Of a stretch of 64,000 nucleotides of DNA, positions 32,941 through 63,358 are shown piece by piece. The notes under the pieces were generated by a model, which was not told where the DNA came from, did not search any database, and saw only the letters and a program-made list of their open reading frames with translations. The translations under genes and the position numbers were made by a program. Position 1 is the first letter of the stretch; every line of letters starts with the position of its first letter. This stretch comes from Actinomyces trachealis (GTDB lineage: Bacteria > Actinomycetota > Actinomycetes > Actinomycetales > Actinomycetaceae). The stretch is from NCBI RefSeq assembly GCF_015711475.1, contig NZ_CP065027.1:2356001-2420000 (forward strand), in the 5' to 3' direction.

Positions 32941-33002
32941 GTATGATTGTGCGCCCAGAAACACTGACCATCAGTCGCCTATAAGCCTTGCCAACAGATG
33001 CG

Positions 33003-33039
33003 CCGCGGCGCGAGCAGAGCTACCCTGCTCGCGCCGCGG
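33003..33039 (-). terminator. Terminator after the LPVTG-anchored amylopullulanase gene
   Basis: CCGCGGCGCGAGCAG (33003-33017) pairs perfectly with CTGCTCGCGCCGCGG (33025-33039) across a 7-base loop, 35 bases after the stop codon of the gene at 33074 on the same strand. No T run follows. Confidence 0.75.
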
Positions 33040-33073
33040 TACTGCAAGCAGCCCACAAGCTGCCTGCCCGGGC

Positions 33074-39163: not shown

Positions 39164-39204
39164 GTGCCTTATGACTCCTTTGTCATGCTGCGAGAACCTC
39201 ACAC

Positions 39205-47477: not shown

Positions 47478-48833
47478 TCAGCGACCAAAAATGCCCCGAC
47501 GTCGGAGCCGCACCTCCCCCTTGCGGGCAACGATCGACCCGGGCGAAGGCGCGTCCAGCTGCCGCTCGGCAATGGCCTGGGGGATACAGGGCCACACTGG
47601 CAGGCGCGGCATGAGCGTCATCTGCAAGGCGTGGTAGATGTCCGGGTGCCCCTTCCAGGTGCGGCTTGAGGGCTGGTTGTCCTGCCCTAGCTCGTGCCAC
47701 CAACGGCCGGGCTCGGCGATCAGGTACTCCTCGGCGTAGTCCAGCCAAGCGCGGTAGCAGTGCTCAAAATGCTCCAGCTCGATCTCCCCGCGCCCGTCGG
47801 ACAGCGCCGCCCAGCGCAGGGCCGCCGCCGCAGAGACGCCCTCGCACACCACCCAGTGCATACGCTCGTGGACCACCGGTTTGCCAGCAAAGTCTGTCGT
47901 GTAGACGAAGCCTGGCCCGCCGTCAACGCGCCAACCGTCGGCGCGCGCCCGGTCAAACATGGCCTCAGCGGCCTCCAGCATCCAATCGGGTGACTCCAGA
48001 CGACGCCCGCGCAGCGCCATCATGGCTTGGACGGTCAGGCGCGCCCACTCAAGGCCGTGGCCAGGGGTGGCACCGTAGGGGCGGAAAGGGTCGGCTGGCT
48101 TATCCCGGTTGTAGTCCAGGTCTGGTTCCCAGTGGGAGTTGTAGTGCTCAGGCAGGCGCCAGCTGTTGGCGCGAGCCTGCTGGTTGACGGCGAAGTCAAT
48201 GATCCGCAGAGCGCGCTTCAACCAGGTGACATCCCCGGTGACGTCAGCCGTGGCTAGGAAGGCCTCCACCGTGTGCATGGCGGCGTTGATGCCACGGTAG
48301 TCCTCCGCCTGGGAAAAGTCGTGGTTGTAGGACTCCACCGGCAGGCCGCGATCCTCGTCCCAGAAGTACTGCTCAAAGACCTTCCGCGCCTCCACCAGCA
48401 GGTCGTGCCCACCGGGACGTCCGGCCGCCGTGGCCGTAGCCGCCGCCAGAAGCACGAAGGCGTGCTGGTAGCACTCCTTACGGGCCTTCTCCTGGGCTGG
48501 CACGCCAGCGCCGTCAAGCCCCGGCTCCAACTGCACCGCAGAGTGCCAGCCACCATGCACCTTGTCCCGCAGGACGTTGCGCAGGCTACGCACGCCGTGG
48601 TCAGAATAGCGCCGTGCCCCGGGGACCCCCAGGAGCACGCCAAGAGAGTAGGCGTAGGTCATACGACTGGTGATCCAGGCCTCTACCGGGTGGGAGGGGT
48701 CAACCATTCCGTCCTCCCCGATCCAACCAAAGCCAGCGGGCACTTTTGCGGCGCGAGCGAAGCGCAGCAGCGCATGCGTCTCCTCCCCCAGCCAGCGGTT
48801 GTGCTCGGGAGCGCCAAACCATCCCAGTCCCAT
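47478..48833 (-). CDS. AGE-family sugar 2-epimerase/isomerase
   Basis: A 451-residue (alpha/alpha)6-barrel protein of the N-acylglucosamine 2-epimerase superfamily, the group that includes YihS and mannose isomerases. Recognisable blocks are ITSRMTYAYSLGVLLG, KECYQHAFVLLAAAT, YRGINAAMHTVEAFLAT, ATPGHGLEWARLTVQ and GRWWHELG, giving the ring of catalytic histidines. In this N-glycan locus the likely job is to convert free mannose to fructose or glucose; a GlcNAc/ManNAc role is the alternative. The ATG at 48833 has AAGGAGG 4 bases upstream and is preferred over the open frame reaching 49058. It is the last gene of the locus, set off by a strong hairpin. Confidence 0.88.
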   Translation of the reverse strand: MGLGWFGAPEHNRWLGEETHALLRFARAAKVPAGFGWIGEDGMVDPSHPVEAWITSRMTYAYSLGVLLGVPGARRYSDHGVRSLRNVLRDKVHGGWHSAVQLEPGLDGAGVPAQEKARKECYQHAFVLLAAATATAAGRPGGHDLLVEARKVFEQYFWDEDRGLPVESYNHDFSQAEDYRGINAAMHTVEAFLATADVTGDVTWLKRALRIIDFAVNQQARANSWRLPEHYNSHWEPDLDYNRDKPADPFRPYGATPGHGLEWARLTVQAMMALRGRRLESPDWMLEAAEAMFDRARADGWRVDGGPGFVYTTDFAGKPVVHERMHWVVCEGVSAAAALRWAALSDGRGEIELEHFEHCYRAWLDYAEEYLIAEPGRWWHELGQDNQPSSRTWKGHPDIYHALQMTLMPRLPVWPCIPQAIAERQLDAPSPGSIVARKGEVRLRRRGIFGR

Positions 48834-48959
48834 GAGTCCTCCTTGACTCGGAAATGACCTACCCGGTCGGGTGCAGCCGCACCGGTGTTGTGAACTTAGC
48901 AAATGGAGGGGGGCGCTGGGGCCTGACGCCAACCGCCCGGGCCTCCAGCAGTGATTACA

Positions 48960-49003
48960 GGTGTGAGGCTGCCGCCCCCCAGCCGGGGCGGCAGCCTCAC
49001 ACC
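48960..49003 (-). terminator. Strong terminator after the GH85 gene
   Basis: GGTGTGAGGCTGCCGCCCC and its exact complement (48985-49003) form a 19 bp stem with a 6-base loop, 6 bases after the GH85 stop codon. Confidence 0.85.
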
Positions 49004-49008
49004 ATTTC

Positions 49009-52000
49009 TCAGGGAGCCACCACCAGGACGTCCTTGCCGTCCAGGTGCTTGACCACAAGCTTGGCCTTGGCGTCCACGCTACCCACGGTGGTGGCGGAAG
49101 AGGTCAAGGTCTTCTGGTAGAGCACGCGGCTACTGCGCCGCAGGGCTAGGGTGGCGCGCCCGTCGCCGTCCCAATCACCCACATAGACCTCGTCATTGCT
49201 GCGCCCCAGGCTGATGGAGGCGTAGACGGGCGCGTCCAGGGTGTTGTGGGCATAGAAGACCACGCGGCTACCCACACGCACGGCCCAGTTCGCCTGGCCG
49301 TCGCCGTCCCAGTCGCCCGTCAGCACGGTGCCCTTCCCCTCGGCTTTCACCTTGGACACGTATGCGGGCATGGTGCCCTGTGGCTGTCCTGGCCCGCCGG
49401 GCTCGGTGGTGGGGCTTGCGGTTGGGGTGGGGCTGGGGTCTGGCTCCGGGTCGGAGGGGTCCTCGATGGTGCCAGGCACGCAGGTCTGCTCGGGCACCTC
49501 CGCAGGCGCCTTCACGCTCGTGGCCTCTCCTGCCTGCACCGTGACCACGGTTGGCTCGGAGGTGTTCCCGGCGTAGTCCGTCAAGCGCAGTTCGAACACC
49601 CCGTCTCCACTCTTGAGGTGGGCGGAGATATCGAAAGGCTCCTGTAGGCGTTCGTTGGTGGCGTCGACACCGAGGCCCCCCTCACCACGAGTGGCGGCGA
49701 ATACTTCCGTGCCCGCTGCCGTAGTGACGGAGATGCGGTGCCAGTCTGCGGGGCTGGGCGAGCTAAGGCGCATCCGGGAGCCTTGCACCTTCACGTCAGT
49801 GGCTGGCAGGGGCCGCGCCCAGGTGTCTGGGAGTTTGCTGCGCAGTGCCAGAACCTGGCCGCCAGCCAGGGGCTGGCTACCCTTGAGGGGCTCAACGCTA
49901 AGGTCGTAATCGCGCCCCTCACGGAAGGGTACGGTCAGCCTCGCGTGCACGCGGCCATCCTGTCCGGTGCTAAGTTCGGAGCCAGTGAGCACGCGGGTCC
50001 AGGACAGGGCCTGGGGGGCGCAACCGGTATGTACCAGGTTGAGTGTGGCCCGGTAGCCGTCCGCACCGGGCGCCGCCGTGAAGGACAGGTCCAGGTCCTG
50101 ACTCCCGGGCGTGGTGGCCTCTAGGGGCGCTACCTGGATGTTGCCGGGGCCAGCTGCCGGGTCGATGACCGACTCTGCTGCCGCTGAGCGCTGCCCGTCT
50201 TTGCCTACGGCCACCAGCCGCAGGGTGACGGGCCCGTGGCCCAGGTTCAGCTTCTTGATATAGCTGCGGGAGGCGTAGGTGGCTCCCAGAGCGGTCACGG
50301 TGCCGTCCGCCTGGGCGGCGGAGAGTTCGTAGTAGCTGACCTGCCCGAAGGGCGCCGCCTGCCAGGTGACGCTCGCCTGCCCGTCGGCGTAGGCGTGCTC
50401 CACATTGAAGCCGGTGGGGGCGGCGGGGGCGGCGCCGCCGTCGGTGACCGCCAAACTCCCCAGGTTCACCTGGACGTCGCCCTCACCCTCCAGCAGGACC
50501 GCCAGCGTGGAGATGCTGCCTCCCGCTCGGCCAGACAGGTCAGCGGTGTAGGTGGTCCAGCCCTTGGCGTCGGTGCCAGTAGCGGTCAGGTCCACGGCCT
50601 GGACCTGGCTGGGGTTGGCCTTGTCCACGACGCCGAGCCGCAGCCGGGGGCTGCCGGTGACGTTGCGGGCCACCAGCTGTGCGCGGGTACCTGCGCCCAC
50701 GGACAGGTCGGTGCGGAACAGGCGCATAGTGGCCTGCCCGTGAAGCTGGCCGTGGATGGCCAGGGAGGAGCCGCCGTCGTAGGCACCCACCGGTTTGAAG
50801 GGGGCCGGGAGACTCTCACCGGTGGTGGAGCGGCGCTCCTCCAGGGTGCCGTAGTCGTAGTCAGCGGTCAGGTCTGGCTGGGCGGTGGTGCCGTCGGCCT
50901 GGGTGATCCACCACTGCCAGGACGGCAGGATGGACTGCTCGTTGATGTTGCCCCACTGCTCGCTGGAGCTGAGGGCCCCTTGGGTCCAGCGGGCCATTCC
51001 GTGGCCGGTGTTGAAGCTGGAGTGGAAACTGCTGCCGCCGATCACGGAACGGGCGGGGGTGAAGTCCGCCACGCCCACCCAGCCGCTGGCATTAGACACG
51101 CCGACGTCGGGGCGGCTGTGGTCCGGTTTCATGCCAGTGTTCAGCACGTCCTCGGTGACGCCGGAGAAGTACATGCGCTCACGCTCGTGGATCATCCACT
51201 GGAATCCGGGCGTCTGCATGAGGGGCCGCTGGTAGCCGGGGACTTTGACGTCGTCGTCTAGGGCCCGCTGGTAGTAGTCCGAGGGCGTGAACAGGGCCAG
51301 GGAAGCACGGGGGCTCTTGGTGCCGGGGGCGTAGAGGTTGGGGATGGAGCGGGCCGAGCCGTGTGAGCCGGAGAACTTGGCCTGGTTGGCCTCTACCCCA
51401 AAGAACACCTCCTGGTAGGGGTCCACGCCGTGGTTCTTGGCATATTCCACTGACCGGTCCACGGACCAGCCCCAGTTATAGTTGACGAACACCGAGTTGT
51501 GGATGCGCCCGTGTTCCTCGTCTTTGAGCCACGCGGCCTTGGCGGCGTTGAAGTTGGAGTTGGTGTCGTACCACTGGGTCCACAGGCCCTGGCTGCTGAG
51601 GTAGGCCATGAAGGGCTTGAACTCGGAGTCGTCCCCGTGCTCCTCCTGGTTCAGGAAGAAGCCGTCAAAGCCGTAGTAGTGGGCCATTTCCACCAGCTTG
51701 TTGGCGATCACGTAGCCCTGGGAGGCAGGGTCCTTGTCGAACATCTCCTTGAAGGTCAGGCCGGGGCGGAAAGAGGGGTCGAAGTAGATGGTGCCGATGG
51801 ATTTCACGCCGTTGCGGTGGGCGGCGTTGGTGTAGGCGGGGTTGGGGATGTTGACGATGCCGAACTCGAAGCCGCGGTTGCGCCAGTCGGAGTTGTTGGG
51901 GTCGTAGAGGGAGTCTGGGGTGGAGGCGGTGGCGGCCCCGTGCCAGGGGGAGTAGTAGTCCGTGTACTGCCAGAACCCCAGGGTGTTCTCGGTGAAGTCG

Positions 52001-52350
52001 TTGTTGGCGGTGGCGGTGTTGAAGAAGGCGTTGCCGTAGTCGCCCTGCATGAGCATGACCTGGGCCTTGCCGTCCAGGCCGGGGTTGGCCTGGGTCTGGG
52101 CGGGGGCCTGGATCCGGGGCTGCAGGGGGACTTCTGCACGCAGGTCGGCGGCGAAGGGGTCGGACTGGGGTGACCAGTCGCGGATGTCCTGGACCCGGTA
52201 GCCCGCAAAGCGGGGCTGGGCTGAGCCCAGGGCCTGGTCTCCCACAGGCGGGTAGGAATCAGCCGCTAATGCGGTTGACGTGATGCCAGCCACGCCGATT
52301 GTGAGCGCCAGTGCAGCGCCGGTAAACCTCTTCCAACGTCTAGTTTTCAT
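49009..52350 (-). CDS. Secreted GH85 endo-beta-N-acetylglucosaminidase
   Basis: Cuts between the two core GlcNAc residues of N-glycans. From the ATG at 52350 (GGAG upstream) the product is 1,113 residues. A signal peptide (KRFTGAALALTIGVAGITST then ALA) precedes a GH85 domain with FGIVNIPNPAYTNAAHRNGV, GTIYFDPSF and the catalytic Asn/Glu pair in GFDGFFLNQEEHGD near residue 229, then FVNYNWGW and FFGVEANQ. A beta-sandwich carbohydrate-binding domain (about 525-670), an Fn3-like domain and further Ig-like domains follow, then a Pro/Thr linker. The last 110 residues hold two GDWDGDG units almost identical in layout to those of the secreted amylopullulanase. There is no LPXTG. Confidence 0.93.
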   Translation of the reverse strand: MKTRRWKRFTGAALALTIGVAGITSTALAADSYPPVGDQALGSAQPRFAGYRVQDIRDWSPQSDPFAADLRAEVPLQPRIQAPAQTQANPGLDGKAQVMLMQGDYGNAFFNTATANNDFTENTLGFWQYTDYYSPWHGAATASTPDSLYDPNNSDWRNRGFEFGIVNIPNPAYTNAAHRNGVKSIGTIYFDPSFRPGLTFKEMFDKDPASQGYVIANKLVEMAHYYGFDGFFLNQEEHGDDSEFKPFMAYLSSQGLWTQWYDTNSNFNAAKAAWLKDEEHGRIHNSVFVNYNWGWSVDRSVEYAKNHGVDPYQEVFFGVEANQAKFSGSHGSARSIPNLYAPGTKSPRASLALFTPSDYYQRALDDDVKVPGYQRPLMQTPGFQWMIHERERMYFSGVTEDVLNTGMKPDHSRPDVGVSNASGWVGVADFTPARSVIGGSSFHSSFNTGHGMARWTQGALSSSEQWGNINEQSILPSWQWWITQADGTTAQPDLTADYDYGTLEERRSTTGESLPAPFKPVGAYDGGSSLAIHGQLHGQATMRLFRTDLSVGAGTRAQLVARNVTGSPRLRLGVVDKANPSQVQAVDLTATGTDAKGWTTYTADLSGRAGGSISTLAVLLEGEGDVQVNLGSLAVTDGGAAPAAPTGFNVEHAYADGQASVTWQAAPFGQVSYYELSAAQADGTVTALGATYASRSYIKKLNLGHGPVTLRLVAVGKDGQRSAAAESVIDPAAGPGNIQVAPLEATTPGSQDLDLSFTAAPGADGYRATLNLVHTGCAPQALSWTRVLTGSELSTGQDGRVHARLTVPFREGRDYDLSVEPLKGSQPLAGGQVLALRSKLPDTWARPLPATDVKVQGSRMRLSSPSPADWHRISVTTAAGTEVFAATRGEGGLGVDATNERLQEPFDISAHLKSGDGVFELRLTDYAGNTSEPTVVTVQAGEATSVKAPAEVPEQTCVPGTIEDPSDPEPDPSPTPTASPTTEPGGPGQPQGTMPAYVSKVKAEGKGTVLTGDWDGDGQANWAVRVGSRVVFYAHNTLDAPVYASISLGRSNDEVYVGDWDGDGRATLALRRSSRVLYQKTLTSSATTVGSVDAKAKLVVKHLDGKDVLVVAP

Positions 52351-52407
52351 CTCAGCTCCATCGCTGCAGATAGGGGAATGGGGTGCACACACAGCACCGG
52401 GATGGTG

Positions 52408-52421
52408 CTGAAGGGGTTTAG
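52408..52421 (-). promoter_or_regulatory. Weaker candidate LacI operator upstream of GH85
   Basis: CTAAACCCCTTCAG (minus strand) matches the site between the mannosidase and lacI genes at 11 of 14 positions. It lies 58-71 bases upstream of the GH85 start. The central CG is replaced by CC, so it would be a weak site. Confidence 0.3.
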
Positions 52422-52481
52422 TGACTCCATCTTGGCAAGTCCAAGCTGAGTTGTCTATAGCAAATGTGACTTGGGGACGGT

Positions 52482-54077
52482 TCAGATGGCGGCGCCTAGC
52501 CGCTCCTCCCGCTCCCGCCACAGCGCGAAAGGCACCGCAGTCTCTGGCCGCCACAGGCGACTACCCATGGCGCGCAGCCGCGGCCTGACGCCCTCAGCAA
52601 CCTCCGCCTCGGTCTGCGCCTCCGGCACGTCGCACCACACACTGAACAGAGCACCCAGGTTCCAGGGGTCCTGCCCCTCCTGCCAACTCTGCGGCCGCCC
52701 ATCCATGAGTCTCGGGAAGACCCCGGGGCGCCACTCGTAGGCGCTCTGGACACTGGGCCTGTCCCAATAGGCGCGGCCCGGCGTGGTCAGAACATAGTAG
52801 AAGACCGAATCGTTGAAGTTGATGACCCGGTGCCCGGTCTGCACAAAGCGCTCAACCGGCGCAAAGCCCTGATGCCAGGCCGTCCAGTAGGTGATGACGA
52901 CGTCGCTGTTTAGGCCCACGCTGGTGCCGGGCAGGTACAGGGCGTCGTTCCAGGCGCGCACTTGGCGCACCCCGAGGCTGCGCAGGCGGGCGACTACCGT
53001 GCCCAGGTAGTGCAGGTAGCCGTCCAGCACGGTGGCCTGCGGGCCCACCTGCTCCTGCGCGTAGGCAGCCAGCTGGGGGAAGTCTCGGGCCAGGCGCTCA
53101 TGCTGCTCCTTGTCCCAGGCAGGGCCCCCCATAGGGAAGACCTCGTCTCCACCCAGGTGCCAGACCTGGGTGCCGAACAGGGGCACCAACTCGTCGAGTA
53201 GGTCAGTGACCAGGGCGCGGGCTTGTGGCCGGGAGTAGTCCAGCAGCAGCCGCCCTGCTTCCGTGTCTGAGGCCCGCAGCTCCGGGTGGGCCTCCAGGGC
53301 GCAACGCATGTGGCCGGGCACATCCAGGGCCGGTACCACACGCACGCGGTACCTGGCCGCCTCGGCCAACAGTGCACGCAGCTCGTCCTGGCTTAGGTGC
53401 TCCTGGCTGACCACCTCGGGGTGGCTGCGGGACTCCAAGCGGAAGCCTTCGTTGTCCGAGAAGTGGAGCTGGAACTCGTTGAGCTTGCACCAGGCCAGCT
53501 CCCGCACCTGCTGGTGGAGCCAGGCCGGGCTGAAGTACTTCCTGCCGACGTCCACATGCAGGCCCCGCACAGGTTTCGCAGGCTCGTCCACCACGGTGCA
53601 AGCCTGGATGCCGCCGCTGAGCACCAAGCTCTGTAGCAGAGTACGGGTGCCGTAGAAGACGCCGGTGGCGGTGGTGGCGGTGATATTCGCCTGCTGCGCC
53701 GTCGTCTCTAAGCGGTAGGCCTCCGGGGAGGTGGCGCCGCCTAGGGCTTCCACCAGCCGCAGCACCACGTCTCCAGGCTGCGGCTCAACCCCGACGGCGA
53801 CCTGCCGTGACGCGGGATCGCCCTGGTATTGAGCATCCCGCACCCGGGGGCCATCCTCCTGGAACCCGTGTGTCGGCAGCCTCGCCAGCTCGGCGGCCAG
53901 GAGTTCAGCATCGGCTAGCAGGCCGACTGCCTGCGCAGGCTCGGCGATCACCACGCGCGTGCCAGCGGTCGGCCGAAAGGGTGCACCCCCATGCTCAATG
54001 ACCTGTTTGAGCGGGGGCAGTACCCCGTGGATTCCCTCACCCTGCACGGAGGTGACGTTCTGCTGGTTCTCGCTCAT
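52482..54077 (-). CDS. Intracellular GH20 beta-N-acetylhexosaminidase
   Basis: Removes terminal beta-linked GlcNAc or GalNAc using substrate-assisted catalysis. The 531-residue protein (start MSENQQNVTS) has an N-terminal GH20b-like domain and a TIM barrel with GLHVDVGRKYF, LNEFQLHFSDNEGFRLES, VPALDVPGHM and the catalytic Asp-Glu pair WHLGGDEVFP near residue 308. There is no signal peptide, so it works inside the cell on imported glycans, trimming antennary GlcNAc or the reducing-end product. A longer frame to 54137 exists, but the internal ATG gives the family-like start. It lies between the ABC permease and GH85 genes on the same strand. Confidence 0.92.
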   Translation of the reverse strand: MSENQQNVTSVQGEGIHGVLPPLKQVIEHGGAPFRPTAGTRVVIAEPAQAVGLLADAELLAAELARLPTHGFQEDGPRVRDAQYQGDPASRQVAVGVEPQPGDVVLRLVEALGGATSPEAYRLETTAQQANITATTATGVFYGTRTLLQSLVLSGGIQACTVVDEPAKPVRGLHVDVGRKYFSPAWLHQQVRELAWCKLNEFQLHFSDNEGFRLESRSHPEVVSQEHLSQDELRALLAEAARYRVRVVPALDVPGHMRCALEAHPELRASDTEAGRLLLDYSRPQARALVTDLLDELVPLFGTQVWHLGGDEVFPMGGPAWDKEQHERLARDFPQLAAYAQEQVGPQATVLDGYLHYLGTVVARLRSLGVRQVRAWNDALYLPGTSVGLNSDVVITYWTAWHQGFAPVERFVQTGHRVINFNDSVFYYVLTTPGRAYWDRPSVQSAYEWRPGVFPRLMDGRPQSWQEGQDPWNLGALFSVWCDVPEAQTEAEVAEGVRPRLRAMGSRLWRPETAVPFALWREREERLGAAI

Positions 54078-54196
54078 ATCCTGCGCTGACCTTTCTGCTT
54101 GCCGGGACGGGGCTGGGCGAAACAAGCGTCTGCGCATCGGTGGACGCTAAGAAGTTGGCCGTTGACGCGATTGCGGCGATGCCTGCGAGGTTGAGC

Positions 54197-54214
54197 GGTA
54201 ACGCTAGCGCTACC
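54197..54214. promoter_or_regulatory. Near-perfect 18 bp palindrome before the GH20 gene
   Basis: GGTAACGCTAGCGCTACC equals its reverse complement at 16 of 18 positions. It lies in the 156-base gap between the permease stop and the GH20 start and could be a regulator site for a separate GH20 promoter. Confidence 0.35.
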
Positions 54215-54233
54215 AGTCCCGCACCGAAGACAC

Positions 54234-55187
54234 TCAGCCCTTGACGCCGCCCTCCTGGACGCCTTTGAAGAACTGCTTCTGGGCCAGGGCGAACAGGATG
54301 ATGATGGGGACCAGAGCGATCACGGTGCCCGCCGCCACCACCCGCGGGTTGGTGCCGAAGTTCGACTGCAGGTACTGCATTCCCACGGTCAGCGTGTACT
54401 TCTCCGGGTCTGAGAGCACCACCAGGGGCCACAGGAAGTCGTCCCAGGCACCGATGAAGGAGAACAGGGCCACCACGCTCACCATGCCCCGGATATTGGG
54501 CCACACGATGTGGCGGATGCGCTGCCAGGTGCTGGCGCCGTCAATCTCAGCAGCTTCCAAGATGTCGCGGGGGATCATGGAGCAGGCAGTGGCCACCAGC
54601 AGCACGTTGATCGCCCCGATCGCCCCGGGCAGGAACACACCAAAGAGGGTGTTGGCTAACCCCAGGGACTTGATAGTCAGGTACTGGCTGGTCAGGGTGA
54701 CCTCACCGGGCAGCAGCATGGTGGACAGCAGCATCGCCATGATGACCCGCTTACCTTTGAAGCGCAGCACCCCCAGGGCGTAGCCGCCGCAGACAGCGAA
54801 GACCACCTGGCTGGCCACCGTACCCAGGCCCAGCAGCAGGGAGTGCCCGGCGTACTTGAGGATCGGGATGGTGTTGGCGACGGTCTGGTAGTGGGCGGTG
54901 GTGGGCTCAGCGGGGATCAACTGGGGCGGGAAGGCGTAGACGTCCTCGGCGGCGCCCTTGAAAGAGGTGGACAGCTCCCACAGGAAGGGGAAGACGGCGA
55001 TCACCGCCAAGATGATGAGGATCAGGTAGCGCATGACTGCACCAGCGGGCGTGGGCTTGAGGAAGTCACACTCACCTTTGCGCCGCCAGAAGCGGTCCCG
55101 GTAGGGCTTGGCCAGGGGGGGCGACGCCGTAGCCGACGCACCCATCTGCTTACCCGTGCTAGCGGGCATGCTGGCGGTGGTGCTCAC
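54234..55187 (-). CDS. Carbohydrate ABC transporter permease (MalG-like)
   Basis: One of two membrane subunits of a CUT1-type sugar importer. The 317-residue protein has a polar N-terminus of about 45 residues, six membrane segments and the cytoplasmic EAA loop EAAEIDGASTWQRIRHIVWP near residue 210, which contacts the ATPase. Its start overlaps the stop of the MalF-like gene by 4 bases. The ATPase subunit is not encoded in the locus, which is common for CUT1 systems that share an MsiK-type ATPase. From its neighbours the likely cargo is an N-glycan-derived oligosaccharide. Confidence 0.93.
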   Translation of the reverse strand: MSTTASMPASTGKQMGASATASPPLAKPYRDRFWRRKGECDFLKPTPAGAVMRYLILIILAVIAVFPFLWELSTSFKGAAEDVYAFPPQLIPAEPTTAHYQTVANTIPILKYAGHSLLLGLGTVASQVVFAVCGGYALGVLRFKGKRVIMAMLLSTMLLPGEVTLTSQYLTIKSLGLANTLFGVFLPGAIGAINVLLVATACSMIPRDILEAAEIDGASTWQRIRHIVWPNIRGMVSVVALFSFIGAWDDFLWPLVVLSDPEKYTLTVGMQYLQSNFGTNPRVVAAGTVIALVPIIILFALAQKQFFKGVQEGGVKG

Positions 55188-56149
55188 TGCTCCGCCTCCT
55201 TCCGGCTAGCGACAACCATCGCGTTGCGACGCAGGGCAGCCCGGTGGGCGCGCCGCTTGCGTAGGGAGTCCCGCAGAGCCGACGGCGACGTGCCGGAGTT
55301 GAGCATGGCGGTCAGGGCCAGGGGTCCGAGAGTGAGGAAAAAGAGCATGACGCTCAGCGCCGAGGTGTAGCCGAGCTGGCCGTTTAGACCTGATCCTTTC
55401 TGCTTAATGAGCATGACCAGGCTCATCGCTTGCCCACCCGGACCTCCTGAGCCGTTGGTCAGCACGTAGATCTCGGAGAAAATTCGCATGGCAGAGGTGG
55501 CGATTAACGCGGAGACCAGCAGCATGGCGCCGCGCACACCAGGCACAGTGATGGACCAGAAGCGGCGGATCGGCCCGGCGCCGTCGATTGCGGCCGCCTC
55601 ATGAAGGTCGCGGCCAACGTTCCCCAGGGCAGCCAGGTAGACCACCATGTAGTACCCCATACCCTTCCAGACGGTCAGGAGAATGGAGCACACCAGGATC
55701 CACCAGCGGTTGGTGAGGAAGCTGATGCCAGTACCGCCAAAGAACTCGATGGCCTGGTTTACGGTGCCGCGCGAGTCGAACATCCAGGACCAGATGATGC
55801 CCACAACCACCACCGAGGCAATTACTGGGAAGTAGTACACCGTGCGGAAAGCGGATATGCCCGGCAGGTGCTTGGAGACGAGCAACGCGATCAGCAGCGG
55901 GATGAGGGTCAGCAGGGGGATGCAGGCGACCACATAGACCAGGCAGGTCACCAGGGCGTAGCCCACCTGCGGGTCAGAGGCGATGGCGGCGTAGTTCTCC
56001 AAGCCGACGAAGCTGGGCTCACGTAGAGGACGAGCGTTCGTGAAGGACAAGATGATGGTGTTGAGGAACGGCCAGAGAGAGAACACCAGCACCCAGATCG
56101 TCGCGGGAAGGACGAGCAGGTAGGGGGTGATCCGCTTAGGTCGGCGCAT
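55184..56149 (-). CDS. Carbohydrate ABC transporter permease (MalF-like)
   Basis: The other membrane subunit, 321 residues, starting MRRPKRITPYLLVLPATIWVL. It has six membrane segments and the EAA loop HEAAAIDGAGPIRRFWSITVPG near residue 185. The C-terminus is basic (RKRRAHRAALRR). It sits between the solute-binding lipoprotein gene and the MalG-like gene in the standard CUT1 order, with a 4-base overlap downstream. Confidence 0.93.
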   Translation of the reverse strand: MRRPKRITPYLLVLPATIWVLVFSLWPFLNTIILSFTNARPLREPSFVGLENYAAIASDPQVGYALVTCLVYVVACIPLLTLIPLLIALLVSKHLPGISAFRTVYYFPVIASVVVVGIIWSWMFDSRGTVNQAIEFFGGTGISFLTNRWWILVCSILLTVWKGMGYYMVVYLAALGNVGRDLHEAAAIDGAGPIRRFWSITVPGVRGAMLLVSALIATSAMRIFSEIYVLTNGSGGPGGQAMSLVMLIKQKGSGLNGQLGYTSALSVMLFFLTLGPLALTAMLNSGTSPSALRDSLRKRRAHRAALRRNAMVVASRKEAEQ

Positions 56150-56185
56150 AAGAGCCTCCAGATCAGATCGGGCATAAGGGAAAGT

Positions 56186-56227
56186 GAGGCGGTGGCGGCC
56201 CAGCTAGAGGAAAGCCGCCACCGCCTC
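56186..56227 (-). terminator. Intercistronic hairpin after the binding-protein gene
   Basis: GAGGCGGTGGCGGC (56186-56199) pairs perfectly with 56214-56227 across a 14-base loop, between the binding-protein stop and the first permease. Such hairpins commonly lower downstream transcription or stabilise the binding-protein message. Confidence 0.6.
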
Positions 56228-56245
56228 AGATGGTGCGTGCAAGGC

Positions 56246-57532
56246 TCAGGCCGAGAGGGCCTTGTTGCAGTAGTCCACGGCGGCATCCAGGGCTGCTTTA
56301 GCGGTGATCTGCCCCTTGATTGCCAGGGCGATCTGCTGCTGGACGTAGGTCTTCATGTCGTTGGAGTACTGGATAGGGGCCGAGATCTCCGCCTTGGGCA
56401 TGGCTGCCGCGGCCAGGGCCACCGCCTGCTTCATTAGCTCGTTGTGAAGGTCTCCTGAGAAGGTCTCCGGGTGCGCGTTGCCTTCGGCGGTGCCAGGCAT
56501 GAAGCCCTGGGCGATCTTGACAAAGCTGATCTGGTTCTCGTTGTTGGTGACGAACTGGGCGAAGGCGAGAGCTAGCTCAGGGTTCTTGGACTCCTTGGCT
56601 ACGGAGATACCCTGGGTGAACAGGGGTGCGGTCTCAAAGCGCGGGCTACAGACGACATGTGGCAGGACTCCGGGAGCGTCGTTCTCCAACTGGGAGACGA
56701 AGGAGCTGGTGGCCGTGGTGTAACCGGCCTTCTCCTGGGTGAACATCTTGGCGTTGTCTGCGGTGTCGTTGTTAAGGGCCTCGTCAGGCATGCCGCCGTT
56801 CTTGTAGAAGCCCGCGAACTTATCCACGATCGCGGCTGCGGCATCCGTGTTGAAGACGAACTTTCCGTCCTTGAAGATCTCCACCCCTCCGTTCTTGAAG
56901 TCCGTGACCCCAGGCATATAGGAGACAAGCTTGACGCCTTTAGCAGCAGCCGTCTCCACCCAGGTGTAGTACTCCTCGATGGTGGTTGGCGGCTTGGTGG
57001 CGTCCAGGCCGGCTTTCGCGAGCAGCTCCGTGTTCCACCAGCACACATCTGTGCCCAGATACCAGGGGTAGCCGAAGGTCCCCTCGATGCCCTCAAAGGT
57101 GTAGGCGTCCAGGCCACCAGAGACATAGGTGGGAAGAATCGCCGAGTTGGCCTTCTTCAGGTCAACTAGCTTGCTGACCTGAGCGAGCTGATAGGCGAAA
57201 TCATTGGGCAGGTTGACCACATCCGGTAGCTCTCCGGAGTTGGCCTGCTGGAGAATCTTCTCCTCGTAGCCGTCACCAGGCTGGTCGATCCACTTAATGG
57301 TGGTCCCGGGGTTAGCGTCCTGGAAAGACTTGACCAGAGCCTCGAAGTAGGGCGTGAACTTCTCGTTCTTCAGTGACCAGGTCTGGAAGGTGATCTCACC
57401 GGAGAGCTTGCCTCCTGCCGCAGTGCTCTTGGTGCCACCCCCAGACTCTCCAGTGGAGCCGGTGCAGGCTGCCAGAGTGGCAGCGGTCGCAGCGGACAGG
57501 CCGATTAGGAGCGAACGGCGTGTCGGGTTCAT
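56246..57532 (-). CDS. Sugar-binding lipoprotein of the ABC importer
   Basis: Family 1 extracellular solute-binding protein, 428 residues. The start MNPTRRSLLIGLSAATAATL leads into a lipobox (LAAC near residue 22), so it is anchored to the outer face of the membrane by a lipid. The mature part has the family's two-lobe pattern (TFQTWSLKNEKFTPYFEAL, ANPGTTIKWIDQPGDGYEEK, FGYPWYLGTDVCWWNTELL). The ATG at 57532 is chosen because the signal peptide starts there. A candidate LacI operator lies 55-68 bases upstream, so this gene probably has its own regulated promoter heading the transporter genes. Confidence 0.93.
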   Translation of the reverse strand: MNPTRRSLLIGLSAATAATLAACTGSTGESGGGTKSTAAGGKLSGEITFQTWSLKNEKFTPYFEALVKSFQDANPGTTIKWIDQPGDGYEEKILQQANSGELPDVVNLPNDFAYQLAQVSKLVDLKKANSAILPTYVSGGLDAYTFEGIEGTFGYPWYLGTDVCWWNTELLAKAGLDATKPPTTIEEYYTWVETAAAKGVKLVSYMPGVTDFKNGGVEIFKDGKFVFNTDAAAAIVDKFAGFYKNGGMPDEALNNDTADNAKMFTQEKAGYTTATSSFVSQLENDAPGVLPHVVCSPRFETAPLFTQGISVAKESKNPELALAFAQFVTNNENQISFVKIAQGFMPGTAEGNAHPETFSGDLHNELMKQAVALAAAAMPKAEISAPIQYSNDMKTYVQQQIALAIKGQITAKAALDAAVDYCNKALSA

Positions 57533-57586
57533 GAAGGGTCCCTTCGTCATTGGAGGAAACTGGGTGGGGTGTCCACTAATCAAATA

Positions 57587-57600
57587 CTACAACGGTTTAG
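57587..57600 (-). promoter_or_regulatory. Candidate LacI-family operator upstream of the binding-protein gene
   Basis: CTAAACCGTTGTAG (minus strand) is an imperfect 14 bp palindrome with central CG. It shares CTAAACCG and the terminal TAG with the site beside the lacI gene. It is 55 bases upstream of the binding-protein start. Confidence 0.55.
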
Positions 57601-57710
57601 TGCGTGAGGGGTAGATCAGGCCCATGACAAACTGCGCCACCCCGTCACCGCTTCCCAGGCGCCAGCCACACACCAGAGACACCAGGAGAGCCGCACCCCG
57701 GCCACGGAAC

Positions 57711-58889
57711 CTACTTCAAGTCCGGAATCCTGAGCGCGGGCGGCTCCCCTGCCGCTGCCTGCCGCAGCCACTGGTCGAAAAGCTCACTCTTGGGGCCGCT
57801 CAGTGATCGGCGCCTAGGTGAGGCACTGGGCAGGGCAAAGCAGTCACGCCCCACCGCACCCCCGCCTGACCCCTGCCGCACCTGAGCCACTGCCTCCTGC
57901 AGGGCCCGTCCCACTGGCTTCAAGGCGCCGTCCGCCGCAAAAAGCCCCAGGGAATGCTCAAGCCCCGGGAAGTCGGCGAGCTCCCGGTCAACATCGTGGG
58001 AGCACCACCAGGTGATGCCTTCCAGCTCCGGCACCGGGCCAGTGGCTGCCTCAACCAAGGAGGCGATCGTCTGATGCACAAAGTCTGGGGCGTCAGCTGC
58101 CTCTACCCAGGTTGCGGGAGCACCCACCTCCTGCAACCAGATGGGCCTGCCAGGCCCACCCCAGGCGCGAGCCAATTCCACCAGGTAGCGGGCAAACAGG
58201 TGCAGGGCCGGGTGCCGCCTGCCGTAGCGGGGCCCCACCTGCATGAAGACCCAGGAGTGGACGGTCGTCTGGTCCCCCAGGGATACCGCGTGCACGGGCT
58301 CAAACGGATGAGTGTCGTCAAACCAGAGGTCGTCGTCGTAAGAGTGGGTGAGCACCGCCTCCGGCCAAGCGCTGCGCGCCTCAGCCAACAGCGTCTCCAA
58401 CCAGGCACCCGCTTGCGCGGAGCTGAGTTCCGAACGGCCAGGGTGACGCTGGGCGGCGAACTGGATGAACTCATTGCCTAGGCTCAGCCCCTCCGCCCCC
58501 GCATGCTTGGCCAGCTCAGCAGCCAAGGTGCGCACCAGCGCGCGCTGTCCAGAGACGACCTCCGGGTCGGTAAACAGGTTGCGCTGGTGCCAGGTGGTAA
58601 CCCAGGACGGCAGGAAATCAAAAGAGGACAGGTGGCCTTGGAGGGCGTCCACCGTGACCGTCAGCCCGACCGCCGCAGCGGCGTCAACCACTGCCAGCAC
58701 GTCATCCACCGCCCGGGTGCGGATAAGAGTGCGATTGGGCTGTAGCAGCGGCCACAGAGGGAAGATCCGCACATGGTCAAGGCCCAACTCTGCGATGGCG
58801 GCCATGTCCTCCGCCACCAGCCCCAGGTCCAGGTCCAGCCAGGAATGGAACCAACCCACCCGGGGCGTGTAATTGACGCCAAAGCGCAT
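57711..58889 (-). CDS. GH5_18-type beta-mannosidase (core Man-beta-1,4-GlcNAc)
   Basis: From the ATG at 58889 (AGGCGG upstream) a 392-residue protein without a signal peptide. The TIM barrel has MRFGVNYTPRVGWFHSWLD, LDHVRIFPLWPLLQPNRTL, the acid/base glutamate in LSLGNEF near residue 140 and the nucleophile glutamate in WLQEVGAP near residue 253. The opening blocks are those I associate with the bifidobacterial GH5_18 enzymes that split Man-beta-1,4-GlcNAc from N-glycan cores. Its start lies one base after the alpha-mannosidase stop, so the two are translated together. The subfamily call is by memory of motifs, not a search. Confidence 0.82.
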   Translation of the reverse strand: MRFGVNYTPRVGWFHSWLDLDLGLVAEDMAAIAELGLDHVRIFPLWPLLQPNRTLIRTRAVDDVLAVVDAAAAVGLTVTVDALQGHLSSFDFLPSWVTTWHQRNLFTDPEVVSGQRALVRTLAAELAKHAGAEGLSLGNEFIQFAAQRHPGRSELSSAQAGAWLETLLAEARSAWPEAVLTHSYDDDLWFDDTHPFEPVHAVSLGDQTTVHSWVFMQVGPRYGRRHPALHLFARYLVELARAWGGPGRPIWLQEVGAPATWVEAADAPDFVHQTIASLVEAATGPVPELEGITWWCSHDVDRELADFPGLEHSLGLFAADGALKPVGRALQEAVAQVRQGSGGGAVGRDCFALPSASPRRRSLSGPKSELFDQWLRQAAAGEPPALRIPDLK

Positions 58890-58890
58890 T

Positions 58891-61800
58891 TCAAGCCGCC
58901 TGCCTACCACGACGGCGCAGCCGGATAGTGGCCACCCCGAAGGGGTGCAGCTCAAAGGACCAAGTCCCAGCCTCACCAGTTGGCTGCACCTGCACCCCCA
59001 GCTCGGTGCTGGGACGTCCGTGCAGGTCCGCGCCTACGGCATCGGTCAACTCCGGAGCCCGCAGGGTGACGCGGCGCCTGGCCCCGTCTGGCTCATAGAC
59101 ACGCACCAGAACAGCAGCCTCCTGCCCCGCCGTAGGGGCAGCCAGGTGTAAGGACTCCACCACTGCGCCGTCGACCCGCACCAGCGGGGCGAGCGCCGCC
59201 TCCAAACGGGCGTCGACGGCGGTCCCCGCAGGCAGGCTCAGCTGTTGGACGGGCAAGTCCAGGCGGTAGGCGGCCGCCCGGACCGTGCTTACCGTCTCCC
59301 CACCAGTAATGGCGAAGCAGCGCTCATGCTCACACCGATCAGCCTGAGGGTCAGGGTAGCGGGGGGCACGCAGCAAAGTGGCGCGCACCAAGGTCCAGGT
59401 GCCGCCGCCCACACGCGGGTGACGGGTGAGGTCCCAGCCGTAGGTGCCGGAGTTCGCCACACCAACACCATGCCCACTCTCCCCGACGTGCAACCACTTG
59501 TGAGCGCAGACCTCAAAGCGGTAGGCGTCCCAGGAGGTGTTCTCATGCGTGGGGCGCCGCAGGTAGCCGTACTGGGAGCCGTAGGCGGCGTCAGCCGCGT
59601 GCACATCCACAGGGAAGGCCAGCTTGAGGACTTTCTCTGTCTCGTGCCAGGAAACCCAGACACGCAGATCCAACTGGGCCAAGCCCGGCTCCAGACTCCA
59701 GGTTAACTCCGCCTGGGACTGACCAAAGCTGACGGTCACCACTGCCCGGGCCCCGGTGGCATCCGCCTGGACCTCCTGGAGCTGGCCCGGCAGATCCTGA
59801 AGCGAAGCACGGTAGAAAGGGTCCAAGTCCCAGGCATCCCACTCATTGGGGAAGTCGTTGGCAAGCTGCAGCAGGCCGAGCCGGGTACCTGGCGGCACCA
59901 CCTCCTGCCCCTGGATCAGTAGGGAGGTGATCGCGCCAGCCTGGTCCAGGTGCACGGACACCTGGTCGTTGCTGAGCAGCGCACCGCCCTCCTGCCGCGT
60001 AGCCCGGCAGAGCCTCTGGGTGCTAGTAGCTGAAGTGGGCAGCAAGGCAGCCCCCAGGGGCGGGACCTCGACGTCGGCAACCTGGCGGCAGACCGGGGCG
60101 GTGTTGAAGACCAGTCGGCCACCGTCAGCACCGGCGACGCCGTCGGCGCTGGGGGCACCGGTGGTGGGGCCACCCAGGGTAACGGTGGGCGAGGCGGCGG
60201 AGAGTGGAACCGCCCCGCCCACCGTCGTCTTAGGGGTGTTGGCGGGATGCGGGCAGGCCAGTGGTACCCCAGCGGCCAGGGCCTGCTGTGCGACGGCAGT
60301 CAACGCCTCGCAGCTGGCAATGACCTGGGAGAACTCAGCCTCAGCATCCTCGTGGACCCAGGCAATCGATGAACCAGGCAGGATGTCGTGGAACTGGCAC
60401 AGCAGGGTGGTGCGCCACAGCTGACGCAACTGAGCAAAGGGGTAGGCGTCATCAGTCAGCAGGCCGCGCGCCCAAGCGGTGGTGCACCAAGTTTCCGCCT
60501 CACGCAGAGCCGCCTCCGCACGACGGTTGCCGCGCTTGGTGCCAGCCTGGGTGGTGAGGGTGCCCCGGTGCTTCTCCAGGTACAGCTCTCCCACCCACAC
60601 GGGAGCGTCGGGATACTCCTGGCGGGCACGGGCAAAGAACTCCTGTGGAGTCATGTGTTGGGTGCGAGGCATCCCCGCTAGGTCCGTGACCCGCTCTATG
60701 CGCTCCACCATCTCGCGGGTGGGGCCGCCCCCGCCGTCGCCGTAGCCGTAAAGGAACAGCTCCGTGCTGGCACGGCCCTTGTCCTTAAAGTTGGTCTCTG
60801 CGTGGCGCAGCTGCTCGGCGCTGACCTCTGCGCCATAAGTGTCGGCAGGCGGGAAATGAGTGAAGATCCGGGTGCCATCAATACCTTCCCACCACAGGGT
60901 GTGGTGGGGGAAGACGTCCACCTGGTTCCAAGAGAGCTTCTGGGTCAAGAAGTTGTCGTATCCCGCCAGGTGGGCGATCTGGGGCAGGGAGCCGGAGTAG
61001 CCAAAGGAGTCCGGCAGCCAGATCTCGTGGCACTCCACGCCTAGCTCCTCCCGGAAGAAGGCGGTGCCTTCGGTGAGCTGTCGTGCCAGTGACTCCCCGG
61101 AAGGCAGCACGGCGTCGGGCTCCACCCAGGAGCCCCCCACGGGCACGATACGTCCGGCTGCCACCTGCGCTTTGACGCGGGCAAATACCTCTGGTTCGTC
61201 CTCCTTAAGCCAGGCCAGGTGCTGGGCGGCTGGCAGAGCGAAGACCATCGGGGAACCGTCCTCCAACAGCCGCAGCACGTTGGACATGGTGCGTACCACC
61301 TTGCGCCGCGTTTCGCGGATGGGCCACAGCCAGGCGGAGTCAATGTGGGCATGCCCCACAGCACCCAGGGTGATGGTGTCGGGGGCGGCGGGCACCGTCA
61401 GCAGCGGGGCCAGCAGGGTGCGGACCCGGGCGGCAGAGCCCGGCACGTCCGTCAGATCCAACTGGTCCAAGGCGGCACTGGTCTCCAGGAGCACCTTCCA
61501 GCCGCGTGGGGAGTCCTCTGGGAGGGTACGGGCCAGGCCTAGCAGCACGTCGACGTCGGCGGCCAGGGCTCGCACCTGGTCGTGGACCTGCACCAGCTCC
61601 GCGGTGATGAAGGTGTGGATCGGCTGGTGGCTCTGGGTGCTGCGGGAGCCCTCAGCGGTGGGCAGGAAGGGGTGGACGTCCAGGAGTAGCGGGTTGGAGG
61701 CAGCCTCCAGGTAGAGTTCGAGCCCACCTTCCGCGTTAAGGAGGGAGGGGGGCACGGGCACCCAGCGGTTGCGGGGGTTGACCGCTTTGAGGACCTCGCC

Positions 61801-62169
61801 GTCGGGGGTGCGGACCAACCCCTCGCATTGAAATCCCGGGGAATGGTCGGCCCAGCCGAGGTCCAGGTCCAGCTCCAGGTGGCTGCTGCGCAGCTCTGCG
61901 GGCACACCCACCCGCAGGCGGAACCAGGTGGTGCCCCAGGCCGGTCCCCAGCGCAGAGGCAGGGTGCAGGGGGTGTACTCAGCCTGTACCGCCTGGTTGA
62001 AAGGCACAGGCTCACCGGCGCCCGCGACCCCGGCTACGGGACCATCCGCCTGGGTAACCTCCCAGTATTCGAGATTGAGCGGCCGCACGGTGCTGCTGGC
62101 AGCAGGTTGGAGGCGTTCCACCAGGATCCGGTCAATGTGCTTAAGAAGCATGGGGCGGTTGGCGTGCAC
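58891..62169 (-). CDS. Intracellular GH38 alpha-mannosidase
   Basis: Removes alpha-linked mannose from imported N-glycan fragments. The 1,092-residue protein has the GH38 metal and catalytic motifs: AHIDSAWLWPIRET near residue 276, WVEPDAVLPSGES, the nucleophile aspartate in WLPDSFGYSGSLPQI near residue 386 and YGYGDGGGGPTREM. Mid and C-terminal beta domains follow. There is no signal peptide. The GTG at 62169 has AGGAGG 6 bases upstream and is favoured over the ATG at 62151. The gene diverges from lacI across about 165 bases that contain a candidate operator, and the beta-mannosidase gene follows directly. Confidence 0.94.
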   Translation of the reverse strand: MHANRPMLLKHIDRILVERLQPAASSTVRPLNLEYWEVTQADGPVAGVAGAGEPVPFNQAVQAEYTPCTLPLRWGPAWGTTWFRLRVGVPAELRSSHLELDLDLGWADHSPGFQCEGLVRTPDGEVLKAVNPRNRWVPVPPSLLNAEGGLELYLEAASNPLLLDVHPFLPTAEGSRSTQSHQPIHTFITAELVQVHDQVRALAADVDVLLGLARTLPEDSPRGWKVLLETSAALDQLDLTDVPGSAARVRTLLAPLLTVPAAPDTITLGAVGHAHIDSAWLWPIRETRRKVVRTMSNVLRLLEDGSPMVFALPAAQHLAWLKEDEPEVFARVKAQVAAGRIVPVGGSWVEPDAVLPSGESLARQLTEGTAFFREELGVECHEIWLPDSFGYSGSLPQIAHLAGYDNFLTQKLSWNQVDVFPHHTLWWEGIDGTRIFTHFPPADTYGAEVSAEQLRHAETNFKDKGRASTELFLYGYGDGGGGPTREMVERIERVTDLAGMPRTQHMTPQEFFARARQEYPDAPVWVGELYLEKHRGTLTTQAGTKRGNRRAEAALREAETWCTTAWARGLLTDDAYPFAQLRQLWRTTLLCQFHDILPGSSIAWVHEDAEAEFSQVIASCEALTAVAQQALAAGVPLACPHPANTPKTTVGGAVPLSAASPTVTLGGPTTGAPSADGVAGADGGRLVFNTAPVCRQVADVEVPPLGAALLPTSATSTQRLCRATRQEGGALLSNDQVSVHLDQAGAITSLLIQGQEVVPPGTRLGLLQLANDFPNEWDAWDLDPFYRASLQDLPGQLQEVQADATGARAVVTVSFGQSQAELTWSLEPGLAQLDLRVWVSWHETEKVLKLAFPVDVHAADAAYGSQYGYLRRPTHENTSWDAYRFEVCAHKWLHVGESGHGVGVANSGTYGWDLTRHPRVGGGTWTLVRATLLRAPRYPDPQADRCEHERCFAITGGETVSTVRAAAYRLDLPVQQLSLPAGTAVDARLEAALAPLVRVDGAVVESLHLAAPTAGQEAAVLVRVYEPDGARRRVTLRAPELTDAVGADLHGRPSTELGVQVQPTGEAGTWSFELHPFGVATIRLRRRGRQAA

Positions 62170-62260
62170 AGAGTGCCTCCTGGGTGCTCGAACCGGCAGC
62201 TGGGCTTAGTGCCGACCACTGCGCCAGCCCTGCGGCGCCTCCTTACGCCACCCGAGGAGA

Positions 62261-62316
62261 CTAAACCGCATTAGAAGGGTGGTCAAGCCGAAACGACGGA
62301 CCTACCCAATCGTTTC
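62261..62316. promoter_or_regulatory. Divergent control region between the GH38 and lacI genes
   Basis: Two sites are visible. CTAAACCGCATTAG (62261-62274) resembles the sites upstream of the binding-protein and GH85 genes. GAAACGA (62290-62296) and TCGTTTC (62310-62316) are a perfect 7 bp inverted repeat close to the lacI start. Together they could control the mannosidase operon and lacI itself. Confidence 0.5.
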
Positions 62317-62335
62317 AGTCATGCATACTTGGCGC

Positions 62336-63358
62336 ATGGACCGCCCCACCATCCGGGACATCGCCAACGTCGCTGGTGTCTCCCCCTCGGCCGTTTCCTT
62401 CGCGCTAAACGACCGCCCTGGAGTGTCAGAGAACACCCGCCAACGCATCCTCGCGGTCGCCAACGAGATGGGCTGGACCCCGAACGCCGCCGCCCGCGCC
62501 CTGTCCGTCTCCCGAGCGGGCACGGTGGGACTGGTGCTAGCCAGGCCCAGCCAGTCTGTGGCAGCTGAGCGCTTCTTCTTCGAGCTGATCATCGGTATGC
62601 AGGCCGCCCTGGCTAGCGCGGACCTGGCCCTGGTCTTCCAGATCGTTGACGACGTCGAGCAGGAGGTGGCCGCTTACCGCTCCCTTTGGCGCCAACACCG
62701 GGTGGACGGCGCCATCGTGGTGGACCCGCGCCACGGGGACCCCCGCCTGCAGGTGCTCGCCGAGCTGCGCATGCCCTATGTGCTCGTGGGCGAGGAGGAC
62801 CCCAACGGGATGCCGTCAGTAATCGGTGACGAGGACGGGATGATGGAACTGGTGGTAAACCACTTAGCCGCCAAAGGCGCCAGCCGCCTGGCCTACGTGT
62901 CCGCCCGCACTCCCCTGCTGCACACCGAGCGGCGCGGCCGGGCCCTGACCCGGATGGGGCGTGAGTACGACCTGGAGGTCATGCTCTCCAGCGCCATGGA
63001 CTACACCGAGCGTTCGGGCGCCCAGGCCACCACGGAGCTGCTCTCCTCCAAGCGCCGCCCCGACTCCATCATCTACGACAACGAGGTCCTCGCACTGGGC
63101 GGCGCCACCACGGCCCGTGAGCTGGGAGCGCGCCTGGGTGAGGACCTAGCAGTGGTGTCCATGGAGGACTCCCCACTGTGCCGCCTGCTCACCCCCGCAA
63201 TCAGCGCGGTGCACCGTGAACCAGGGACCATGGGGAACCTGGCGGCCCAACTACTCGTGGAGCACCTGGGGGGAGCCCCTGCGCGCAGCGTCCAGGCTCC
63301 TACGCCAGAACTCGTGGCCCGCAGATCCTCCACCCTCAGCCAGGGCGCCAGCGCCTGA
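62336..63358 (+). CDS. LacI-family transcriptional regulator of the N-glycan locus
   Basis: A 340-residue regulator with a typical helix-turn-helix and hinge (TIRDIANVAGVSPSAVSFAL, then GWTPNAAARAL) at residues 4-55, followed by a periplasmic-binding-protein-like sensor domain (VGLVLARPSQSV, VDGAIVVDPR, then DSIIYDNEVLALGGATTA). The N-terminal start at 62336 is preferred; an ATG at 62321 adds five residues. It is divergent from the mannosidase operon, so a repressor of that operon released by a mannose- or GlcNAc-containing sugar is the simplest inference. The DNA targets are probably the CTAAACCG sites. Confidence 0.92.
   Translation: MDRPTIRDIANVAGVSPSAVSFALNDRPGVSENTRQRILAVANEMGWTPNAAARALSVSRAGTVGLVLARPSQSVAAERFFFELIIGMQAALASADLALVFQIVDDVEQEVAAYRSLWRQHRVDGAIVVDPRHGDPRLQVLAELRMPYVLVGEEDPNGMPSVIGDEDGMMELVVNHLAAKGASRLAYVSARTPLLHTERRGRALTRMGREYDLEVMLSSAMDYTERSGAQATTELLSSKRRPDSIIYDNEVLALGGATTARELGARLGEDLAVVSMEDSPLCRLLTPAISAVHREPGTMGNLAAQLLVEHLGGAPARSVQAPTPELVARRSSTLSQGASA

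Follow-up and report, generated by a model that had tools for sequence, protein, structure and literature searches.

A locus of nine genes was analyzed in a 64 kb stretch of the Actinomyces trachealis contig NZ_CP065027.1 (positions 2,356,001 to 2,420,000), which is called the window in the following and to which all plain coordinates refer. The locus consists of eight genes on the minus strand and one divergent gene for a LacI-family regulator. All nine were found by Pfam searches, or by a PDB sequence search in the case of the GH5 gene, at or near the places where an earlier note on this DNA had put them. That note proposed a locus for the use of N-glycans, a reading which is well backed by the gene families and receives additional regulatory backing from predicted operator sites. 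The nine genes very probably form a LacI-controlled N-glycan utilization locus. Several of the listed open reading frame (ORF) starts look too long, and likelier starts were chosen by eye for the genes of the AGE-family isomerase (48833), GH85 (52350), GH20 (54077), the solute-binding lipoprotein (57532 or 57550) and GH5_18 (58889).

The regulator gene (62336..63358, plus strand) matches Pfam LacI with 54 bits and Peripla_BP_3 with 83 bits; its ORF begins at 62279, and a start at 62336 is likelier by eye. The first gene on the opposite strand (58891..62169, minus strand) encodes a GH38 alpha-mannosidase (Pfam Glyco_hydro_38N, 296 bits), which scores 720 bits against PDB entry 7ufs and 446 to 508 bits against the Ams1 entries. 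It contains the motifs HAHID, DSFGY, and HDILPG, which have a known role in this family, and no other GH38 match was found in the genome. One base past its stop, the GH5_18 gene begins (57711..58889, minus strand). No Pfam match was obtained for this gene and NCBIfam gave no useful name. In the PDB search, the closest match is the characterized Cutibacterium acnes mannosidase (6gvb, 423 bits), followed by entries named ScGH5_18, BlGH5_18, and BlMan5B with 330 to 392 bits. Its GNE and QEV motifs align with Glu140 and Glu259, the catalytic residues of the C. acnes enzyme CaMan5_18 (PMC6160142). On the basis of its sequence and both catalytic glutamates, the gene product is a member of the GH5_18 subfamily, and it is predicted to be an exo-beta-1,4-mannosidase acting on Man-beta-1,4-GlcNAc.

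The solute-binding lipoprotein (SBP) is encoded at 56246..57532 on the minus strand (Pfam SBP_bac_8, 106 bits). Its best PDB match is 6wpm, listed with a paper on a sugar-binding protein of a marine Synechococcus, from which no substrate was deduced, and none of its PDB matches is named NgtS. Two permease genes follow on the same strand, permease A (55184..56149; Pfam BPD_transp_1, 41 bits) and permease B (54234..55187; 59 bits), which overlap by 4 bases. A gene for a UgpC-type ATPase is located elsewhere in the genome (C1:194002-195120, 467 bits at a cut-off of 432), with a second match at C1:135496 (366 bits). ATPases of the MsiK type serve transporters which lack an ATPase gene of their own.

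The GH20 gene (52482..54077, minus strand; Pfam Glyco_hydro_20, 127 bits) encodes a predicted beta-N-acetylhexosaminidase with the motifs RGLHVD, HFSDNEGFR, and GGDE, to which the A. bovis protein is 70% identical. Its top PDB matches are lacto-N-biosidases, and this activity was considered and rejected: HFSDNEGFR is kept here, whereas the lacto-N-biosidases 8hvb, 9fyn, and 4h04 differ or show a gap at H-x-S-D-x-x-G, a motif that would decide the specificity against lacto-N-biosidase.

The GH85 endo-beta-N-acetylglucosaminidase (49009..52350, minus strand) matches Pfam Glyco_hydro_85 with 161 bits (cut-off 22.2) and GH85_C with 30 bits. Among PDB entries it scores 136 bits against 3gdb (spr0440), 129 bits against 2w91 (Endo-D), and 122 bits against 2vtf, which we take to be Endo-A. 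The sequence LNQE aligns with INQE of Endo-D 2w91 and thus contains the common N-x-E motif, which has a catalytic role in GH85 enzymes. The C-terminal end of the protein is formed by a module with two GDWDGDG repeats (49012..49371, minus strand), for which no Pfam match was found. The last gene (47478..48833, minus strand) encodes an AGE-family isomerase (Pfam GlcNAc_2-epim, 335 bits) with PDB matches to 2afa (369 bits), the sulfoquinovose isomerase 7ag4 (361 bits), and YihS 2rgk (357 bits). With 432 bits it does not reach the cut-off of 600 of the NCBIfam D-mannose isomerase family NF051846, to which it is related, and it was not filed as a member; its context suggests that it may convert mannose to fructose. 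A DASS-type transporter gene (45468-47024, minus strand; Pfam Na_sulph_symp, 255 bits) adjoins the isomerase gene here as well as in A. weissii and A. bovis.

Export signals were judged visually and from a hydropathy scan (19-residue windows, threshold 1.6). GH85 has a signal-peptide-like N-terminus and two windows above the threshold, the highest at residue 12. The SBP has a lipobox (LAAC, by eye) and a hydropathy peak of 1.5 at residue 13. No export signal was seen in GH38 and GH20, which like the isomerase have no window above 1.6, and the three such windows of GH5_18 have their highest value at residue 64. In the other enzymes neither approach showed an export signal, so that GH85 and the SBP appear to be the exported proteins, as the earlier note had it.

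Three predicted LacI operators were identified in the window. O1 (GACTAAACCGCATTAGAA; 62259..62276) is located between the LacI and GH38 genes and matches CTAAANCGNNTTAG exactly, O2 (57585..57602) lies upstream of the SBP gene and O3 (52406..52423) upstream of the GH85 gene. Every 18-mer in the 64 kb was scored with a matrix of 57 sites, all from other species. O1, O2, and O3, with 24.6, 20.0, and 13.4 of possible 30.3 bits, take ranks one to three, and rank four reaches only 7.7 bits. This order is unchanged when the three Actinomyces sites (L002-L004) are dropped from the matrix. With two mismatches allowed, the pattern has 9 matches in the window at 2.4 expected, palindromes counting twice. 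O2 is matched by sites at the corresponding position of A. weissii (19.8 bits) and A. bovis (20.0 bits), and so is O3 (15.7 and 10.5 bits, respectively); the A. bovis counterpart of O3 scores lower than a 12.6-bit site just within the GH85 match.

The intergenic regions between LacI and the divergent gene of relatives contain a palindrome near CTAAAnCGnnTTAG. In 68 such regions it is matched exactly in 33, with one mismatch in 24, with two in 7, and with three in 4. A site with at most one mismatch thus occurs in 57 of the 68 regions and in none of 20 dinucleotide-shuffled sets. The consensus was derived from the same 68 regions that were scored, so that the ranking in the window is the better test.

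Furthermore, 18 GH85 loci of relatives within the Actinomycetaceae were analyzed in a stretch of 19.9 kb each; some of the matrix sites come from the same genera, and this set is therefore not independent by lineage. Within the 500 bp upstream of GH85, the highest-scoring site reaches at least 19.9 bits in 11 of the 18 loci and 10.1 to 15.7 bits in four, while three loci have none. In eight relatives, the 19.9 kb surrounding GH85 contain neither a GH38 nor a GH5_18 match (L111, L113, L114, L116, L117, L118, L121, and L122; L113 is taken to share one A. phocae contig with L005). In all eight, the highest score of the stretch belongs to a site upstream of GH85, with at least 19.9 bits in six and weaker scores in L121 (11.3 bits) and L122 (10.1 bits). 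The observed score was reached by 0 of 200 base-shuffled upstream regions for the 11 strong loci and L106, by one for L107, two for L121, and five for L122, and by 194, 197, and 61 for the three loci without a site.

Related loci were found via GH5_18, and the best 80 of 348 were evaluated by bit-score thresholds; since some are cut by contig ends, the counts are lower bounds. Of these, at least 69 contain GH38, 70 LacI (at least 190 bits), 60 the SBP, 60 permease A, and 61 permease B, and all five are located beside GH5_18 in at least 55. GH85 (27), AGE (7), and GH20 (4) occur somewhere in the same stretch less often. The nearest of the 80 belong to Actinomyces and other Actinomycetaceae, 27 are from Streptomyces and eight from Kitasatospora, and none is from Bifidobacterium. 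The earlier note had set the gene order apart from that of Bifidobacterium clusters. The order is not unique to A. trachealis, as it is the same in A. weissii and A. bovis over the whole range from GH38 to AGE. In Actinobaculum suis (L021), GH85, GH20, and AGE are present in a different order. Among 200 genomes drawn from the family, GH85 was found in A. trachealis itself and 18 others, and a plasmid search with GH85 gave four records, each below 60% identity.

Taken from these sequence comparisons, it is probable that one putative LacI orthologue with its operator ACTAAAnCGnnTTAGT governs an N-glycan regulon from Streptomyces to skin and oral actinobacteria, that Actinomycetaceae recruit GH85 by means of the operator even where the gene lies off the cluster, and that this control replaces the NagR-type control suggested for bifidobacteria. 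For unlinked GH85 genes, the operator was examined in Actinomycetaceae.

Outside the window, the genome encodes further enzymes for glycans. Three genes, for a sialidase-like protein, a beta-galactosidase of family GH35, and a GH20 enzyme, lie within 13 kb at C1:261023-273782, and the product of each carries the GDWDGDG module at its C-terminus; between the first two genes, one ORF runs on the opposite strand. Other parts of the genome code for a shorter, second BNR_2 protein, one more large GH20, a GH29, a NAGidase (PF07555), and a GH101 enzyme. Secretion of all these proteins was assessed by eye. No GH92 or GH125 was detected in the genome. The earlier note saw no sialidase, galactosidase, fucosidase, or importer ATPase, which is correct for the locus; the genome as a whole contains the sialidase-like, GH35, and GH29 genes and the UgpC-type ATPase gene.

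The GDWDGDG module of GH85, with about 117 residues, is present 12 times in the genome; two of these copies lie in the window, at 49012-49371 and 27585-27941 (both minus strand). Its carriers are GH85, an amylopullulanase, the sialidase-like protein, GH35, two GH20, GH29, the PF07555 NAGidase, GH101, a GDSL lipase, a weak GH16-like protein, and a 108-residue frame. At nine of the 12 places it is attached to proteins with glycosidase-type domains above the Pfam cut-off. Some copies are nearly identical, and the module may serve retention at the cell surface. The amylopullulanase belongs to three large pullulanase/amylopullulanase genes in a row (24499-39202, minus strand) coding for 1012, 1752, and 2042 amino acids, of which the 1752-residue protein ends in the GDWDGDG module and the 2042-residue protein in an LPVTG-like sorting signal.

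Together these genes would provide a near-complete pathway for release, import, and digestion within one Actinomyces locus. Sialic acid, galactose, and antennary GlcNAc would probably be removed first by the enzymes encoded elsewhere. Outside the cell, GH85, with its signal peptide and repeat module, would then cut the GlcNAc-beta-1,4-GlcNAc bond of glycoproteins, and the lipoprotein and the two permeases, presumably powered by the UgpC-type ATPase, would take up the freed Man(n)GlcNAc. Inside the cell, GH20 would take off any leftover beta-linked GlcNAc, GH38 would strip the alpha-mannoses, GH5_18 would split Man-beta-1,4-GlcNAc, and the isomerase may act on the mannose. The LacI regulator would repress three units via operators of this type, with borders presumably enclosing GH38-GH5_18, SBP-permeases-GH20, and GH85-AGE, and repression would be lifted when a glycan-derived inducer appears.

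Several observations speak against this model or its extension to relatives. O3 is weak, and two sites of at least 12 bits were also found in 117,423 other positions of the genome, so that O3 alone is not convincing. One of the two lies within the ORF L138:17936-19384. Four further sites, at 348067, 596237, 627558, and 2501121, were found by a genome-wide pattern scan with one mismatch and have no link to N-glycans that could be recognized by eye; the site at C1:627558 is located upstream of an ORF resembling, by eye, a sugar isomerase. In relatives, 11 of the 68 LacI-divergent regions have two or three mismatches. No site was found within 500 bp upstream of GH85 in L110, L115, and L123, and four more relatives have only sites of 10.1 to 15.7 bits. 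In L115, GH85 follows the permeases and a 13.1-bit site precedes the SBP, and in L123 it comes after AGE, which is preceded by a 20.9-bit site; the stretch of L110 has no site above 8.2 bits, and no LacI match was found there either. In the window, a promoter scan gave no match (0.9 expected) and a terminator scan seven (7.6 expected), which is nothing above chance. In addition, a nagA-like gene stays below its cut-off (187 of 226 bits), and GH85 leaves one GlcNAc on the protein, so that no chitobiose remains for which an intracellular GH20 would be needed; leftover antennary or bisecting GlcNAc is suggested as its substrate. The similar sites elsewhere in the genome, such as that at C1:627558, and the two control sites could mean that the operator likeness is a general feature of the LacI family and that the three units are not co-regulated by the LacI of the locus. 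This is very unlikely, since all three top-ranking sites of the 64 kb precede genes of the locus, A. weissii and A. bovis have sites corresponding to O2 and O3, and the best site lies upstream of GH85 in eight of eight relatives without GH38 or GH5_18 nearby, two of them with only 10.1 and 11.3 bits. The second control site (13.5 bits, C1:1622656-1622673) is located some 170 bp ahead of the point where the large GH20 gene at C1:1619478 probably starts. This gene was considered as a regulon member, which is unsupported, as no match to it was found in 120 kb of A. weissii including the syntenic place.

Regarding the substrate, the earlier note had named high-mannose or pre-trimmed glycans. A high-mannose specialist, in which GH85 frees untrimmed Man5-Man9 glycans that are taken up intact, as in a model for Bifidobacterium longum, would agree with the lack of sialidase, galactosidase, and fucosidase among the genes of the locus. 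It would also agree with a review which models B. longum without trimming ahead of GH18/GH85 and states that GH85 specificities vary (PMC10154615). The genome of A. trachealis has a single GH38 and no detected GH92 or GH125, vs. three GH38 and one GH125 in B. longum (PMC10154615), and it has genes for sialidase-like proteins, GH35, GH29, and two additional GH20 enzymes. These genes and the non-detection of GH92 and GH125 weaken the high-mannose option, which is considered unlikely, and favor pre-trimmed cores, the better half of the earlier proposal; the slightly higher score of GH85 against Endo-D than against 2vtf is a very weak hint in the same direction. The reading of the whole genome thus takes the place of the high-mannose guess. 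The target could also be fungal, plant, or insect glycoprotein instead of animal glycoprotein, as 35 of the best 80 related loci belong to Streptomyces and Kitasatospora, which are mostly soil bacteria. Against this, the nearest complete loci are those of the animal-associated A. weissii and A. bovis, and the sialidase-like proteins and GH101 of the genome, by the activities of their families, point to animal glycoconjugates. A non-animal target is therefore improbable, and pre-trimmed N-glycans of animal glycoproteins are preferred as substrate.

The closest described locus found is the N-glycan-processing locus 1 of C. acnes, where a GH38/GH5_18/GH20 locus with transporter genes has already been proposed and where, as in the present model, cytoplasmic breakdown of the core is predicted (PMC6160142). 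The arrangement is similar here: adjacent GH38 and GH5_18 without export signals are linked to an SBP, permeases, an intracellular hexosaminidase, and a regulator. A further likeness is that C. acnes encodes GH33 and GH35 enzymes with export signals at other places of its genome. In contrast, the locus of C. acnes 266 contains a GH18 gene and, according to a figure legend, an ATP-binding gene, and the genes for secreted enzymes are described as dispersed and GH85 is mentioned only in passing, as fragments or full-length (PMC6160142), whereas GH85 and AGE are part of the locus in A. trachealis. GH85 proteins named C. acnes exist among the matches listed, with 47% identity. As the C. acnes locus has been described and 55 of the 80 related loci share the core genes, the kind of locus is already known.

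In Streptococcus pneumoniae, the system of EndoD, NgtS-P1-P2, and GH38-GH125-GH92 likewise combines a secreted GH85 with an intracellular GH38 and imports Man3-5GlcNAc by an ABC transporter that has no ATPase gene nearby. There, extracellular trimming by sialidase, galactosidase, and hexosaminidase exposes the core released by EndoD (PMC5215778), as is proposed here. However, its genes lie in three places, it uses GH92 and GH125, no GH5_18 was seen in the part of its gene table that was covered, and anchoring is by LPXTG (PMC5215778) instead of a GDWDGDG module.

The earlier note had drawn a parallel to clusters of Bifidobacterium. According to published descriptions, B. longum shares GH85 or GH18, GH38, GH5_18, and a dedicated uptake system, mnaABC (PMC11758915, PMC10154615, PMC9599254), and the GH38/GH5_18 pair has been named in Bifidobacterium, Dermabacter, and Arcanobacterium (PMC6160142); GH125 and the three GH38 set B. 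longum apart (PMC10154615). In B. infantis, the NagR paralogue NglR is said to potentially control a complex N-glycan cluster (PMC9599254). The locus was rejected as an NglR-type cluster, because its regulator is of the LacI family and not a NagR paralogue. A LacI-family regulator for mannose and mannosides, ManR, whose regulon members could not be checked, is listed in PMC4052901. In the open-licence papers searched, among them PMC4746261, PMC4052901, and PMC9599254, neither an operator nor a LacI regulator was found to be published for this system, a search that excluded supplements, subscription papers, and regulon databases. Compared with the known systems, the predicted LacI operator, which also occurs at GH85 genes that lie outside the cluster, is added here, and the motif offers a concrete handle for finding unlinked N-glycan genes across actinobacteria.

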